A DNA stretch of 64,000 nucleotides, taken from the NCBI RefSeq assembly GCF_026004055.1, contig NZ_BPIJ01000001.1, positions 558,001 to 622,000 on the forward strand, given 5' to 3'. A model generated the notes under the pieces. It saw only the letters and a program-made list of their open reading frames with translations, had not been told where the DNA came from and did no database searches. Positions 49,741 through 58,503 of this stretch are shown here, piece after piece. Position 1 is the first letter of the stretch, and every line of letters starts with the position of its first letter. Made by a program: the position numbers and the translations under genes. Source of the stretch: Meiothermus sp. GTDB lineage: Bacteria; Deinococcota; Deinococci; Deinococcales; Thermaceae.

Positions 49741-51087
49741 CTACTTTCCCCCCAAAGTTGCAAGGAACTCTTTGTTGGTCTTGGTACGGGACAAGCGCCC
49801 GAGCAGCATTTCCATGGCCTCGGCGGGATCCATATCGGCCAGCACCTTGCGCAATAACCACATTTTTTGAATCACTTCCTGGCCCAGCAGGAGCTCCTCG
49901 CGCCGGGTGCCCGACTTAAGGATGTCGATGGCCGGGAAGATGCGGCGTTCCTCCAGACGACGAGAAAGGTGCAGCTCCATGTTGCCGGTACCTTTGAACT
50001 CTTCGAAGATTACATCGTCCATGCGGCTACCGGTCTCGACCAGGGCCGTCGCCAAAATGGTGAGGGAACCGCCGCCCCGAATGTTGCGGGCCGCGCCCAA
50101 GAAGCGCTTGGGAAAATGTAGGGCCGCCGAGTCCAGACCGCCCGAGAGCGTCCGACCCGTGGGCGGGGTGACCAGGTTGTTGGCTCGAGCCAGACGGGTG
50201 ATGGAGTCCAGCAGGATGAGCACATGCCCGCCTTCTTCCACAATCCGGCGGCTGCGCTCATGCACAAACTCGGCCACCCGGATGTGGTTTTGCGGGGGCT
50301 CGTCGAAGGTCGAGGCAATGACATCGGCCCCCTCCACCGACTCGCGGAAGTCGGTGACCTCCTCGGGGCGCTCGTCGATCAGGAGCACGATGACCTTAAT
50401 ATCGGGCTCGTTTCTGAGCACAGCTTTGGCAATTTTCTTCAATAGGGTGGTCTTGCCGGCCTTGGGCGGGGCTACGATCAGGCCGCGCTGGCCGCGCCCG
50501 ATGGGGGCCAGCAGATCTATAACCCGGTTGGAGGACTCCTCGCCGGTGGTCTCGAGGATAATCTGTCGGTCGGGGAACTGCGGTATCAGGTCGTCGAACT
50601 TGGGACGCTTGGCGGCGGTCTCCGGGTCGAGGTTGTTGACCGCCTCCACCTTCATCAGGGTGCCGTAGCGCTCGTTCTCACGTGCTGGACGGGCCTTGCC
50701 CACCACATAGTCGCCGGTGCGGAGCTGGTACTGCTTGATCAGGCCCGCCGAAACGATAACCGTGCGAGAGTCCATGGTGTAGAGGCTCTCCTGCAAGAAG
50801 CCGTAGCCATCTTGGCTAATCTCCAAGTAGCCCTGGGCAATGACCAGGCCTTCTTCAGTGGCCTCCTGCGAGAGCAAGAGCATAACCAGTTCGTCTTTGG
50901 AGAGCTTTTTGTAGTTGGGTATGCCGGCTTCGGCGGCCAAAAGGTGCAGCTCGGGCAGGATGCGGCTCGAGAGCTCCTGATAGCTGAGGGGCACGTTGCT
51001 CTGAACCTTGCGCCGCACTTTCTTGCCGGTGCGGGTTAAGGCGACCTGGGTTTCGGGGTTGGGTTCGGTGGTACTGTTTTTTGGCAT
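49741..51087 (-). CDS. rho: Transcription termination factor Rho
   Basis: 448 aa. The N-terminal basic tail and Rho-N helix region precede the RNA-binding OB fold ([14 protein letters not shown]) and the ATPase with Walker [49 protein letters not shown] and the Q/R-loop region [20 protein letters not shown]. It is a hexameric RNA translocase that ends unstructured transcripts. It lies 32 bp after the transaldolase start region on the same strand, so the two may be co-transcribed. Confidence 0.96.
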
Positions 51088-51119: not shown

Positions 51120-51770
51120 CTAAACCTGGGCGCTGGCCTTGGCCCAGTCTTCCAGGAAGGCCTTCAGGCCTAGGTCGGTGAGGGGATGCTTGATGAGCTG
51201 CTGAAACACCTTGGCCGGCATAGTAGCGATGTCGGCTCCCAAGAGGGCGGCCTGGGTGACATGCCGGGGGTGGCGGATGGAGGCGGCCAGGATGCGGGTG
51301 CCGAGGTTTTGTATCCGAAAGAGATCGCTAATCTCGCGGATCAAGTCCATGCCTTCCCAGGAAATGTCGTCTATGCGGCCCAAAAAGGGCGAAACACACC
51401 AGGCCCCGGCTTTGGCGCATAAAAGCGCCTGGTTGGCCGAAAACACCAGGGTCATGTTGATGCGGATGCCCTCTGCAGAGAGGGTTTTGCAGGCTTTGAG
51501 CCCGTCGATGGTGGTGGGCAGCTTGACCACCACGTGTTCATCAATGGCGGCCAGACGGCGCCCCTCGGCTACCATCTCGGCAGCAGTGGTAGAGACCACT
51601 TCCGCCGAAACCGGCCCCTGCACGATCCCGCATATTTCCTTGATGGTGGGCTCGAGCGGACGCCCCGCCTTGGCGATTAAAGAAGGGTTGGTGGTGACGC
51701 CCGCCAGCACGCCCCAGGCCGCAATCTCCCTGATTTCGCTCACTTCGGCAGTATCGAGGTACAAGTCCAT
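51120..51770 (-). CDS. tal: Transaldolase, small type (TalC/FSA family)
   Basis: 216 aa, the short subfamily shared by TalC transaldolase and fructose-6-phosphate aldolase. MDLYLDTAEVSEIREI, GVTTNPSLIAKAGR, VVKLPTTIDGLKA (Schiff-base Lys) and NMTLVFSANQALLCAKAGA are diagnostic. It acts in the non-oxidative pentose phosphate pathway. The ATG at 51770 has GGAGTGA upstream; an earlier in-frame start adds a non-family leader. Transaldolase and F6P aldolase activity cannot be separated by eye. Confidence 0.9.
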   Translation of the reverse strand: MDLYLDTAEVSEIREIAAWGVLAGVTTNPSLIAKAGRPLEPTIKEICGIVQGPVSAEVVSTTAAEMVAEGRRLAAIDEHVVVKLPTTIDGLKACKTLSAEGIRINMTLVFSANQALLCAKAGAWCVSPFLGRIDDISWEGMDLIREISDLFRIQNLGTRILAASIRHPRHVTQAALLGADIATMPAKVFQQLIKHPLTDLGLKAFLEDWAKASAQV

Positions 51771-51866
51771 ACCACATTCACTCCTTCCCGCGCCTGCTCC
51801 CATTTGTGCAGATTTTCCAGTCGAGTATATCGCCGGGCTGGGATGAGAAGCAAGGGATTTGGATTG

Positions 51867-51901: not shown

Positions 51902-52264
51902 TAGCCGGTTGCCAGCAGTGGAGTTTAGCACACGCTGCACCCGGTGTAAAGAGCCGGGGACGAGTAGGCTTTCAGCGACCATGAAGCGAGCCTGGGAGGG
52001 TGCAAGCCAGGCGGCAACCTGAAAGTTGAAAATCACCCCAGGCAAACTTGGGAAGAACAGGCGCAGCCTTAGTAGACCCCAACGGGTGCGCCCGAAATAG
52101 CGCGTTAGAGTGCCTGAATATGAGTTCAAAGTCCAACGGCCTGTAGCTATCAGCCTTGGGCCTCGAGCCAGATTTCAGGAAGTGCGGTGGTAACGCGGGA
52201 ACACTCGAGCCGAGCTTCTCGTCCGCACCTGAGCAAACCGGATGGTTCAGGTCGGACGTTTTTC
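51902..52264 (+). promoter_or_regulatory. T-box riboswitch, isoleucine specifier
   Basis: Stem I has the S-turn strands AGTA (51963-51966) and GTTGAA, helix CTTTCAG/CTGAAAG, the distal motif GCGAGCCTGGGAGGG..TGCAAGCC and the specifier ATC (52032-52034) before ACCCC, which pairs with GGGG at the stem base. The T-box bulge TGGT (52188-52191) lies in GTGCGGTGGTAACGCGG, matching the tRNA NCCA end with discriminator A. A terminator hairpin follows. Uncharged tRNA-Ile would favour the antiterminator and turn on ileS. Codon ATC and the next gene agree. Confidence 0.9.
52221..52263 (+). terminator. T-box-controlled intrinsic terminator before ileS
   Basis: GTCCGCACCTGAGC (52221-52234) pairs with GGTTCAGGTCGGAC (52244-52257, small mismatches) and is followed by TTTTT. 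The left arm also completes the antiterminator with GTGCGG upstream, so the two structures exclude each other. Confidence 0.85.
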
Positions 52265-52294: not shown

Positions 52295-55200
52295 ATGGTA
52301 GAGGAAAAAAAGCTATTTCAAGAGGTCGCCGAGCCCAACTTCCCCAAGCTCGAGGAGGCGGTACTGGCCTTCTGGCGCGAGAATGATATTTTTGCCAAAT
52401 CCGACCAGAAGCCCGCACCCAAAGGTGAGTTTGTCTTTTATGAAGGCCCCCCCACGGCCAACGGCAAACCCGCCATGCACCACGTGCTGGCCCGCAGCTT
52501 CAAGGACATCTTTCCCCGTTACAAAACCATGCAGGGCTTCCACGTGACCCGCAAGGGGGGCTGGGATACCCACGGCCTGCCCGTAGAAATTGCGGTGGAG
52601 AAAAAACTGGGCGTGCTGGGCCGCAAAGCCCTGAGCCCCGAGCAGATTGCCGAATTCACCCAACAGTGCCGCGAGTGGGTGTTTGCCAACATTGAGGACT
52701 GGAACTACTTCACCGAGCGGATGGGCATGTGGGTCGACCTCGAGAACGCCTACGTAACCTATCACAACAGCTATATCGAGTCGGTGTGGAACCTCCTGAA
52801 GCGCATGTGGGATAAGGGTATGGTGGTGCAGGACTACAAGGTGGTGCCGCTATCGCCCCGCATCTCCACCACCTTATCGCAAAACGAGATCGCCGACGGC
52901 TACCGCGAAGTAGACGACCCCAGTGTGTACGTGCGCTTCCCGCTGAAGCTGGAAACCACGCCCCTGGCGGTGCGGTCAAAGCTCCTGGCCCAGGGTGTAC
53001 GGCTGGAAGAGCTGAAGAACCTGGCCATTCTGGTCTGGACTACCACACCCTGGACACTGCCCTCCAACACCATGGCGGCAGTGAACCCCCAGATGGACTA
53101 TGCGGTGGTGCGCTCGCCCTCAGTGGGGCACCTGATTCTGGCTACTGAGGCGGTAGAGCGGCTAAAGGAGCTGCACCAAGAAGAGCTCGAGGTGGTCGCA
53201 CACCTGAAGGGCTCGGACATGGAGTGGTGGGAGTACACCCCCCCCTTCCCCGAAGTATGCGTGGAGCTCGGGGTGGTGAAGGAGCAGGGTGAAAAGCGCC
53301 CGGACGGCAGGCCGGTCATGCACTTTGTGGCCCTGGCCGACTTCGTGAGCGCCGACGACGGCTCGGGGGTAGCCCACGAAGCCCCGGTTTACGGCGCCGA
53401 AGACCTGGAACTTGCCCGCCAATACGGCACCCCGCTGCTCTTTGGCACCAACGAGTATGGGGTGATGCAAGTCACCGACGAGCGGGGCAAGTTTTTCAAG
53501 GAAGCTGACAAGGGCCTCATTCGCATCATGAAGGAGCGGGGCGTCTTGTACCATGCGGGCCAGATTCGTCACCGCTACCCCTTCCATGACCGCACCGGCG
53601 ACCCCATTCTGTACTTCGCCAAGCCAAGCTGGTACATCAAAACCTCTAACTTCCGCCAAGAGCTCTACGAGAACAACGAGCAGATCAACTGGATTCCCGA
53701 GCACATCAAGCACGGGCGCTTCGGCAACTGGCTCAAGGACAACGTGGACTGGGCCATCAGCCGGGAGCGCTACTGGGGTACCCCGCTGCCCTTCTGGGTT
53801 TCGGAGGATGGGTCGGAGAAAATCTGTGTGGGTAGCGTGCAGGAGCTTTCTGAGCTGGCCGGCCGCGATTTATCGCACCTCGACCTGCACCGACCTTACG
53901 TGGACGAAATCACTTTTGTAAAGAATGGCAAGACCTTCCGCCGGGTTCCAGAGGTGCTGGACGTATGGTTCGACTCCGGGGCCATGCCCTATGCCCAGTG
54001 GCACCTGATGGTAGATGCGGAAGGCCGACCACTGCCGGGCTATGAGTCCAACTTTGAGCAGTGGCGTAAGCACTTTCCCGCCGACTATATCTGCGAGGCC
54101 ATCGACCAGACCCGCGGCTGGTTCTACTCGCTGCACGCCATCTCCACCCTGTTGTACAACCAGCCCTGCTTCAAAAACGTGATCTGCTTGGGGCATTTGG
54201 TCGACGAAAAGGGCCACAAGATGTCGAAGAGCAAGGGCAACGTGGTGGAGCCACTGCCCATGTTCGACAAGTACGGGGCCGATGCGGTGCGCTGGTATCT
54301 GTTTACGGGCTCTGAACCCGGCGAGCAAAAGCGCTTCTCCGAGCGGCTGGTACAGGAGGCCCAGCGGGGCTTTTTGGGTACCCTCTGGAATGTCTATAGC
54401 TTTTTTGTGCTGTACGCCAACCTGGATAAGCCCGACCTGCAAAACCGCCCCCCGGTGGAGGCCCGCCCGGAGATGGATCGGTGGCTGGTGGCACGCCAAC
54501 AACAGATGATTGAGCGGGTGACGGCTGCGCTCGAGGCCTACGACGCCCGGGGAGCCGGAAAGGAGCTCGAGCAGTTCGTCGAGGAGCTCTCCAACTGGTA
54601 TGTGCGGCGCAACCGCCGCCGTTTCTGGAAAAACGACGACCCCACCGACCGTGAAGCTGCCTATGCCACCCTCTGGGAGGCTTTGGTGGGGGTGGTGCAG
54701 CTAGCCTCCCCTTTCACCCCCTTTGTGGCCGAGGCCCTGTGGCAGAACTTGGTGCGCTCGATAGTGCCCGAGGCTGCCGAGTCGGTGCACCTATCCGACT
54801 GGCCTAAAGCCGACCCCAAGCTGATAGACCAAACCCTGCTCACCCAGATGGGGGCCGTGGTAAAGGTGGTGGGGCTGGCCCGCAGTGCTAGAGCCATCAG
54901 CGGCATCAAAACCCGTATACCGCTGCCAAAAGTCTTGGTGACCGCACCTACCGAGGCCGAGTTGGCCGGCCTGCGTCACTTTGCGGGTGAAATCGCCGAG
55001 GAATTGAACGTCAAGCAGGTCGAGGTACTGGGGCTGGGTGAGGAGCTGCTGACCTACCGGGTGCTGCCCAACCTGCCGGTGTTGGGTAAAAAATATGGTA
55101 AGCGGGTTCCCGCCATCCGGGCTGCCCTGGCCGAGCTAGATAGCCAGATGGTGGCCAAAACCCTCAAGGCGGGCCGCAGCCTGAGCCTCGAGATTGAGGG

Positions 55201-55576
55201 CGAGCGTATTATGCTGGCGCCCGAGGAGGTGCTGCTCGAGGCCCTCTCGCCCGAAGGCTACTCGGCCCAAGAAGAGGGGGGTTATATGGCGGCGCTCGAG
55301 GTTAAGCTGGACGAACAGTTGTTGCTGGAAGGCCTCAGCCGCGACCTGATCCGGCTGGTGCAGCAGGCCCGTAAGGAGATGGGCCTGAACGTTTCCGATC
55401 GCATTCATCTGACCTATGCCGCCGAGGGCAAATATGCCACATCGCTGGCCCAGTTTGGCCCCAGGATTCAGGAGGAGACCCTGGCCCTGTCGCTTGTTCA
55501 GGGTGAGCCGGTGGGTTTTGTGGTCGAGCTTTCCGACGAAGAGGGTACCGTCAAGTTTGGGCTGAGCAAGGCCTGA
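52295..55576 (+). CDS. ileS: Isoleucyl-tRNA synthetase, type 2, with altered HIGH motif
   Basis: 1093 aa. Class I synthetase with CP1 editing domain (WTTTPWTLPSNTMAAVNP; VSADDGSGVAHEAP), KMSKS at residues 642-646 and a C-terminal anticodon-binding region of the eukaryote-like/IleRS2 type (GYSAQEEGGYMAALE). The ATP-binding HxGH motif is replaced by AMHH (60-63) in PPTANGKPAMHHVLARS, resembling the GxHH variant of some bacterial IleRS2. It charges tRNA-Ile; type 2 enzymes are generally mupirocin-insensitive. AAAGGA precedes the ATG at 52295. Expression is under the T-box leader. Confidence 0.94.
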   Translation: MVEEKKLFQEVAEPNFPKLEEAVLAFWRENDIFAKSDQKPAPKGEFVFYEGPPTANGKPAMHHVLARSFKDIFPRYKTMQGFHVTRKGGWDTHGLPVEIAVEKKLGVLGRKALSPEQIAEFTQQCREWVFANIEDWNYFTERMGMWVDLENAYVTYHNSYIESVWNLLKRMWDKGMVVQDYKVVPLSPRISTTLSQNEIADGYREVDDPSVYVRFPLKLETTPLAVRSKLLAQGVRLEELKNLAILVWTTTPWTLPSNTMAAVNPQMDYAVVRSPSVGHLILATEAVERLKELHQEELEVVAHLKGSDMEWWEYTPPFPEVCVELGVVKEQGEKRPDGRPVMHFVALADFVSADDGSGVAHEAPVYGAEDLELARQYGTPLLFGTNEYGVMQVTDERGKFFKEADKGLIRIMKERGVLYHAGQIRHRYPFHDRTGDPILYFAKPSWYIKTSNFRQELYENNEQINWIPEHIKHGRFGNWLKDNVDWAISRERYWGTPLPFWVSEDGSEKICVGSVQELSELAGRDLSHLDLHRPYVDEITFVKNGKTFRRVPEVLDVWFDSGAMPYAQWHLMVDAEGRPLPGYESNFEQWRKHFPADYICEAIDQTRGWFYSLHAISTLLYNQPCFKNVICLGHLVDEKGHKMSKSKGNVVEPLPMFDKYGADAVRWYLFTGSEPGEQKRFSERLVQEAQRGFLGTLWNVYSFFVLYANLDKPDLQNRPPVEARPEMDRWLVARQQQMIERVTAALEAYDARGAGKELEQFVEELSNWYVRRNRRRFWKNDDPTDREAAYATLWEALVGVVQLASPFTPFVAEALWQNLVRSIVPEAAESVHLSDWPKADPKLIDQTLLTQMGAVVKVVGLARSARAISGIKTRIPLPKVLVTAPTEAELAGLRHFAGEIAEELNVKQVEVLGLGEELLTYRVLPNLPVLGKKYGKRVPAIRAALAELDSQMVAKTLKAGRSLSLEIEGERIMLAPEEVLLEALSPEGYSAQEEGGYMAALEVKLDEQLLLEGLSRDLIRLVQQARKEMGLNVSDRIHLTYAAEGKYATSLAQFGPRIQEETLALSLVQGEPVGFVVELSDEEGTVKFGLSKA

Positions 55577-55799: not shown

Positions 55800-56213
55800 G
55801 TGAGCATGTACCGCATCGGCGAGCTTGCCAGGGAAGCCGGGGTCAGCACCGACACCCTGCGCTTCTACGAACGCGAGGGCTTGTTGCGCCCAGAAGAGCG
55901 CAGCGAGGGGGGCTACCGCCTCTACGAGGCCGAGGCCCTGCAGCGTCTGCGCTTCATCAAACAGGCCCAGGCTCTGGGTCTGACGCTGGAGGAGATCCGG
56001 GCGGTGCTCGAGGTCATGGAGGGAGGCCGCCCTCCCTGCGCCGACGTGCGCCGGGTGCTGCGCCAGAAGGTGACCCTGCTGGAGCAGCGCATCGCCGAAC
56101 TCACCGCCCTGCGCGATACCTTGGCCTCTCGGCTAGAGTGGGCCGAGGCGCACCCCGACCCCGCCTGCGACGGCAAGGATCACTGCGTCTACCTCGACCC
56201 CACCCCAGCCTGA
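55800..56213 (+). CDS. MerR-family metal-responsive regulator
   Basis: 137 aa. An N-terminal winged helix (YRIGELAREAGVSTDTLRFY, GYRLYEAEALQRLRFI) precedes a dimerisation coiled coil. Metal-site candidates are Cys in PPCADVRR and the C-terminal CDGKDHC. The layout resembles MerR/CadR/ZntR regulators that distort the 19-20 bp spacer of their promoters. Such a promoter lies at 56868 before merP-like/merA. The GTG at 55800 or the ATG at 55806 is the start. The metal cannot be fixed; context favours Hg(II). Confidence 0.88.
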   Translation: MSMYRIGELAREAGVSTDTLRFYEREGLLRPEERSEGGYRLYEAEALQRLRFIKQAQALGLTLEEIRAVLEVMEGGRPPCADVRRVLRQKVTLLEQRIAELTALRDTLASRLEWAEAHPDPACDGKDHCVYLDPTPA

Positions 56214-56905: not shown

Positions 56906-57133
56906 ATGGAAAACACACGCCAGTACAGGCTCAAGGTTCCGGGGATGCACTGCTCAGGCTGCATCCGTACGGTAGAAGCCGCCCTCAAGCGCGTGCCCGG
57001 CACGGTGCGGGTACGGGTGGACTACCTGCGCAAGGAGGCCACGGTGGAGGGTGAAGCTTCATTGGAAACCTGGCTCGCCGAATTGCAAGCCGTGGGCTAT
57101 CCCGCCCAGGTGATCCCTGAGAGGGCGCGATGA
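56906..57133 (+). CDS. Heavy-metal-associated domain protein (MerP/CopZ-like)
   Basis: 75 aa, a single HMA fold. VPGMHCSGCIRTVEAAL carries the metal-binding CxxC (Cys16, Cys19). There is no signal peptide, so unlike periplasmic MerP it would act in the cytoplasm, like CopZ or the N-terminal domain of MerA. Its stop overlaps the merA start (ATGA), so it may replace the missing NmerA domain and hand Hg(II) to MerA. Confidence 0.88.
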   Translation: MENTRQYRLKVPGMHCSGCIRTVEAALKRVPGTVRVRVDYLRKEATVEGEASLETWLAELQAVGYPAQVIPERAR

Positions 57134-58503
57134 GCTACGACCTGCTGATCGTGGGCAGCGGCTCAGCGGGGGTGGCAGCCGCTTTGGAAGCGGCCTCGAG
57201 AGGGGCCAAAGCCGCGGTCGTTGAGGGTGGGGTTCTGGGCGGAACCTGCGTCAACGTGGGCTGCGTGCCTTCCAAGGCTTTGCTGCGAGCTGCCGAAGCC
57301 TTCCACAAGGCAGGGCATCACCCCTTCCAGGGTATCCAGACCCAAGCTGGGAGGGTCGAGCTGGAGCGGGTTATCCGGCAAAAGGATGACCTGGTGGGCA
57401 GCCTGCGCCAGGAGAAGTACGCAGAGGTGCTAAAGGCCGCCGGTGTCTCCCTGATCCAGGGCCAGGCCCGTTTTCTCGACGGGGAGACCCTGGAGGTGAA
57501 CGGGCAAGCCTACAAGGCCAGGCGCTACCTGCTCGCCACCGGTGCAGTGCCAACCCTGCCCCCGATCCCCGGTCTGGCCGAAAGTCAACCCTGGACCTAC
57601 CTCGAGGCCCTCTCCCCAGATACCCAGCCCAAGAGCCTGCTGGTAATCGGCGGGGGACCCATCGGGCTGGAGATCGCCCAGGCCTATGCCCGGCTGGGAA
57701 CCAGAGTGACGGTGCTCGAGGCCACTCCCTACCTGCTCCCCGCCGAAGACCCCGAGCTCTCCACCCTGCTGCGGGGCTACCTCGAGGCCGAAGGACTTTC
57801 GGTTCACAGCGGGGTCAGGGTGCAGCAGGTAGAGCGCGACGGCGAATTTCGGATACACACCCACGGTGGGGTCTACCGTGCCGAACGACTGCTGGTAGCA
57901 ACAGGACGCAAAGCCCGCACCGAGGGGCTGAACCTGGAGGCCGCCGGAGTCGGGCTGGGCCCACGGGGGGAGATCCAAGTGGACGAATACCTCAGGAGCA
58001 GCAACCCCCGCATCTTCGCGGCGGGTGATGCCGCGGGTTTACTGCAGTTCGTCTACGTGGCCGCCCAATCCGGGCGCATCGCGGCCCGGAATGCCCTGGG
58101 GGAAGTGGAAGCGCTCGAGCTGCAGGCGGTGCCCCGCGTGACCTTCACCGACCCCGCCCTGGCCACGGTGGGGCTTACCGAGGAGGAAGCCCGCGGGCGG
58201 TACGGTTCAGCCATCCGGGTGTCCCGGCTTCCCTTGGGGCAGCTTCCCAAATCCATGGCGCAGCATGACCACCGGGGGCTGTTCAAGCTGGTGGTGAACG
58301 CTGAGGGTGTGGTGCTGGGGCTGTCCATCCTGGCTCCCGAAGCCGGGGATGCCCTGCAAGAAGCGGTGCTGGCGGTCAAGTTCGGCCTCCATTACCGTGA
58401 CCTGATCGACACCTTCCATCCCTATCTCACGTTGGCCGAGGGCATCCGACTCGTAGCTCAGGCCCTCGATACCGAGGTGGGGATGCTCTCGTGCTGTGCG
58501 TGA
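57130..58503 (+). CDS. merA: Mercuric reductase
   Basis: 457 aa. FAD loop DLLIVGSGSAGVAAALEAA, redox pair GGTCVNVGCVPSK (Cys40, Cys45), NAD(P)H motif IGGGPIGLEIAQAYARLG, DTFHPYLTLAEG and the C-terminal vicinal cysteines SCCA (455-456) that bind Hg(II) at the partner's active site. There is no NmerA domain; the separate HMA protein upstream likely serves. It reduces Hg(II) to Hg(0) with NADPH. A strong GGAGGAAG follows at the stop, but no ATG is placed for it. Confidence 0.93.
   Translation: MSYDLLIVGSGSAGVAAALEAASRGAKAAVVEGGVLGGTCVNVGCVPSKALLRAAEAFHKAGHHPFQGIQTQAGRVELERVIRQKDDLVGSLRQEKYAEVLKAAGVSLIQGQARFLDGETLEVNGQAYKARRYLLATGAVPTLPPIPGLAESQPWTYLEALSPDTQPKSLLVIGGGPIGLEIAQAYARLGTRVTVLEATPYLLPAEDPELSTLLRGYLEAEGLSVHSGVRVQQVERDGEFRIHTHGGVYRAERLLVATGRKARTEGLNLEAAGVGLGPRGEIQVDEYLRSSNPRIFAAGDAAGLLQFVYVAAQSGRIAARNALGEVEALELQAVPRVTFTDPALATVGLTEEEARGRYGSAIRVSRLPLGQLPKSMAQHDHRGLFKLVVNAEGVVLGLSILAPEAGDALQEAVLAVKFGLHYRDLIDTFHPYLTLAEGIRLVAQALDTEVGMLSCCA

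Follow-up and report, generated by a model that had tools for sequence, protein, structure and literature searches.

The isoleucyl-tRNA synthetase (IleRS) encoded in a 64,000-nucleotide stretch of Meiothermus sp. DNA (contig NZ_BPIJ01000001.1, positions 558,001 to 622,000; hereafter the window) reads AMHH at residues 60-63, where class I synthetases carry HxGH. Is this departure real, and what kind of enzyme does it mark? Three features bear directly on the question:

52295-55576, forward strand: ileS, type 2 isoleucyl-tRNA synthetase (TIGR00392, PF00133, PF08264, PF19302)
52472-52483, forward strand: AMHH, swapped class I signature motif, residues 60-63 (codons read; aligned with 1ile and 8c8w)
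54218-54232, forward strand: KMSKS, canonical signature motif, residues 642-646 (translation and alignment)

The codons for A60, M61, H62 and H63 are GCC ATG CAC CAC. The program phmmer places KPAMHH of the window enzyme over LPHVGH of Thermus thermophilus IleRS (1ile) and over LPGVHH of the hyper-resistant Priestia megaterium mutant 8c8w, so that the replacement of HxGH at these residues, as first described, is upheld. Brkic et al. 2023 defined the swapped motif as G/AXHH, where X is Ile, Val, Leu, Met or Tyr; their IleRS2 tree counts 86 G/AXHH and 77 HXGH, with Ala only 'rarely' at the first position (PMC10485003). The window enzyme falls within this definition: Ala, a hydrophobic X (Met), His and His stand at the aligned columns. 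The motif is real but not new, and belongs to an already described kind of enzyme. The preliminary description had taken Ala60 for a further variant; this view has to be given up, as the published motif admits both Ala and Met and a natural ALHH enzyme has been assayed. Our additions are modest: the distribution of the motif across the phylum, the loss of zinc sites, a probable replacement of ileS at its own locus and a putative T-box leader.

The assayed enzyme is the IleRS2 of Deinococcus radiodurans, with a kcat of 45.5 per s and a mupirocin Ki of 6600 µM (6.6 mM); changing its ALHH to HVGH lowers the Ki 823-fold, to 8.1 µM (PMC10485003). Like the window IleRS it is a type 2 enzyme of the same phylum with Ala at position 1 and His at positions 3 and 4; the variable position is Leu in one and Met in the other. 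For comparison, the mupirocin Ki is 0.20 µM for the HVGH enzyme of T. thermophilus and 460 µM for the hyper-resistant GVHH mutant of P. megaterium IleRS2, in whose structure the third His occupies the place of the first; Brkic et al. ascribe hyper-resistance to a clash of this third His with mupirocin (PMC10485003). The mutant (8c8w) has its swapped motif at the same columns as the window enzyme, but it is a laboratory construct with Gly at position 1, has kept the cysteine pairs that are lost in the window enzyme, and is 38% identical to it.

By extension from the P. megaterium structures and the D. radiodurans kinetics, His62, in the third motif position and with room left by the small Ala60, would replace the missing first His and stabilise the transition state of isoleucyl-adenylate formation. 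The bulky His62 would also clash with mupirocin and render the enzyme hyper-resistant, with a Ki in the millimolar range, as measured for natural enzymes of this kind, and at little catalytic cost. Details could differ from the P. megaterium enzyme, given the low identity and the absence of the Thermus zinc cysteines. The window very probably encodes the organism's only, and essential, IleRS, a type 2 enzyme that belongs to the published G/AXHH subclass and for which His-swap catalysis and mupirocin hyper-resistance are to be expected; the link between swapped IleRS2 motifs and strong resistance, suggested from the start, agrees with published work (PMC10485003). In an AF2 model of the window IleRS (12 sequences; mean pLDDT 79) helix alpha1 begins at residue 61, which fits a signature motif at this place. 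Among solved structures the P. megaterium IleRS2 entries match best, and 1ile is also one of the top matches; residues 51-60 have a mean pLDDT of 58, too weak at the active site for side-chain arguments.

The search covered 111 genomes of the phylum, nearly all of which yielded the gene; after duplicates had been removed by hand, the motif was readable in 104. AMHH occurs in 26 of these: all 18 Meiothermus genomes and eight outside the genus, namely four from two sister genera (including Calidithermus) and four from a family labelled f3. ALHH is found once (G109), GXHH in 48 genomes, HVGH in 28, limited to Thermus and one sister genus, and HYGH once, in an unrelated IleRS lineage (G110). With 75 of 104 genomes carrying it, the swapped signature is the rule, the usual condition of most Deinococcota sampled, and it is the well-known Thermus enzyme that departs from it; the Thermus genomes, like the alignment with 1ile, show this enzyme to be canonical HVGH, as the preliminary description had it. 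Marinithermaceae and Trueperaceae IleRS also have natural swapped motifs (GVHH or GIHH; L037, L038, L096 and others), with Gly at position 1 in contrast to Ala in the window. Among AMHH genomes the motif codons differ synonymously (GCC, GCG or GCT; CAC or CAT). This variation across 26 genomes, together with a dN/dS of about 0.07, shows that AMHH is not an effect of sequencing or chance.

The IleRS of G110 (L122) combines HYGH with KMSKR and is 38% identical to the window enzyme; it has FATGxPHxGH and KMSKR in common with the IleRS (L164, HHGH) of Pseudoalteromonas plasmid pTML1, which we take to be the thiomarinol plasmid.

In the gene tree, one clade holds every sequence with Ala at position 1, a change from Gly that takes a single base (GGN to GCN). 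Thermus IleRS is nested inside the GVHH enzymes of Marinithermaceae, in agreement with the reversion to HVGH inferred by Brkic et al. at their node 744 (PMC10485003). No strict coupling was seen between the motif and the adenine-facing residue before KMSKS (LGH versus HGL): HVGH pairs with HGL in Thermus, and GVHH is found with both.

This distribution bears on what the motif is for. AMHH may simply be inherited from a GXHH ancestor, within a co-adapted active site, resistance being an unselected by-product; we give this reading slightly less than an even chance. Swapped motifs prevail throughout the phylum, hot-spring genera included, for which we know of no exposure to pseudomonic acids, and Thermus went back to HVGH without evident harm. 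On the other hand, the motif is invariant through its clade although reversion is possible, and introducing the swap artificially lowers kcat by up to tenfold (PMC10485003), so something seems to keep it in place.

Class I synthetases without the first His are normally impaired about 1000-fold (PMC10485003). This could mean that the gene is a degraded or non-canonical paralogue that serves some other function, and that the housekeeping IleRS is encoded at another place. The gene itself makes this very unlikely. Its reading frame starts with ATG and encodes 1093 amino acids before the stop; the product scores 960.8 bits with the TIGR00392 equivalog (cut-off 621.4). By phmmer it is closer to solved type 2 enzymes (1ile, 956 bits; 8c8w, 815 bits) than to the type 1 enzyme 8c9f (309 bits), its nearest solved structures being 1ile and 8c8u/8c8v/8c8w, and residues 900-1072 match PF19302, which we infer to be a marker of the type 2 C-terminal domain. 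Judged from these sequence comparisons the enzyme is of type 2, as initially proposed. It is full length, with a KMSKS loop at residues 642-646 that would complete a class I catalytic site and with the editing-site motifs WTTTPWTLPSN and GSGVAHEAP intact. A TIGR00392 search of the Meiothermus assembly (3.18 Mb, 99.65% completeness) returned this single IleRS; the remaining matches score far under the cut-off and, by their length, are probably ValRS, LeuRS and MetRS. Comparison with close relatives gives the dN/dS of about 0.07 quoted above, indicating purifying selection. The assignment to the genus agrees with named Meiothermus loci that are up to 91% identical. A sole copy under such strong selection is a working housekeeping enzyme, and a putative T-box with a probable Ile specifier lies upstream. 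A pseudogene was likewise considered and rejected on the dN/dS value. Least credible of all is a misalignment hiding a canonical HxGH: the TANGxP-motif-VLAR stretch shows no gap when aligned with over 100 homologues or with 1ile and 8c8u/8c8w, and no HxGH was found elsewhere in the protein in alignments with solved enzymes and homologues.

Neither is the enzyme an acquired MupA or MupB, as its scores with the NCBIfam exception models, 730 and 710 bits, fall short of the cut-off of 1900. A plasmid search returned no match to it above 60% identity, and a contig scan for ileS relatives got no further than Meiothermus and Calidithermus, apart from distant relatives in archaea or bacteria. Among the papers searched, none names both Meiothermus and IleRS.

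The T. thermophilus enzyme (1ile, 1jzq, 1jzs) comes from the same family of organisms and shares with the window IleRS its type, overall fold and KMSKS. It differs in its HVGH motif, in its sequence (about 51-55% identity) and in eight cysteines, arranged in four pairs, which we take to be the ligands of two zinc ions. All eight are kept in Thermus and Marinithermaceae, while the window enzyme and the whole AXHH clade have none of them, and hence no Thermus-type zinc site. Trueperaceae IleRS have lost the second set and mostly the first; those of family f2 have lost the second. As Marinithermaceae combine GVHH with all eight cysteines, the loss tracks lineage and is not tied to the motif in every case. 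For enzymology, a good natural pair within one family would be Thermus, with HVGH and the full set of zinc cysteines, and Meiothermus, with AMHH and none of them.

How two such different enzymes came to occupy one family can be addressed with the genes next to ileS:

49741-51087, reverse strand: rho, used as species-tree control (TIGR00767, 575.7 bits)
51120-51803, reverse strand: tal/fsa-type transaldolase, divergent neighbour of ileS (TIGR00875, 291.5 bits)

In the IleRS tree, Meiothermus groups with f3 and G109 (62-63% identity), as sister to Trueperaceae; Thermus, although of the same family, groups with Marinithermaceae (about 55% identity to the window enzyme). Constraining Meiothermus and Thermus together was rejected (log-likelihood 501 lower, AU p 1.9e-8), in a tree without Deinococcus sequences and for groups chosen after the IleRS tree had been seen. 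The species-tree control, a single gene, disagrees: rho places Meiothermus with Thermus and Marinithermaceae (support 99/97) and G109 with Truepera (95/88), and rejects Meiothermus plus f3 (p 0.0075). Nevertheless, the divergent arrangement of rho-tal and ileS is common to Meiothermus, Thermus and Marinithermaceae, and rho adjoins ileS in G109 too.

The simplest reading of conflicting trees at a conserved locus is that ileS was replaced in situ. We lean towards the following scenario: the common ancestor of Thermus, Marinithermaceae and Meiothermus had a zinc-binding IleRS that was inherited vertically; in the Meiothermus/Calidithermus lineage, and a second time in G109, a Truepera relative, a zinc-free AXHH enzyme took over in place, coming from a donor similar to Deinococcus or to f3, with neighbours and T-box regulation retained. 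The direction is one that we infer from the trees. Old paralogy with differential loss could also account for the conflict. Should replacement hold, the locus would be a natural case in which a target enzyme, drug-proof by its own make-up, passed from one family to another within conserved surroundings.

On one contig, G109 (L032, placed in Trueperaceae) has a rho of Truepera type next to its ALHH, zinc-free IleRS of Meiothermus/f3 type, which suggests a second in-place replacement. In many Thermus genomes (G050, G054, G058 and others) the rho match contains one in-frame stop, mostly TAA; this may fall where the match ends, Thermus rho stopping earlier than that of the window.

Finally, the region between tal and ileS contains a putative regulatory leader:

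51947-52229, forward strand: putative T-box leader of ileS (RF00230, 66.3 bits, E 6.4e-14, full length)
52220-52263, forward strand: intrinsic terminator, a hairpin at 52220-52258 followed by T5 (fold and sequence)

The RF00230 score is under the gathering score of 93; the match is full length and in place, with antiterminator and terminator present. The probable specifier codon, read by eye from the alignment, is AUC (Ile) at 52032-52034, and the terminator hairpin and the antiterminator have CGTCC in common. The hairpin appears in both the minimum-energy and the centroid fold, while the stretch as a whole folds no better than shuffled sequences (z -0.81). Uncharged tRNA-Ile, or blocked charging, would be predicted to induce ileS through this element. 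A T-box also precedes ileS in Thermus, Marinithermaceae, one f3 genome and G109. On the other side of the gene, downstream of ileS, lie a MerR-family regulator (55800-56213) and, still at a short distance, a mercuric reductase MerA (57130-58503; 508 bits against a cut-off of 454).
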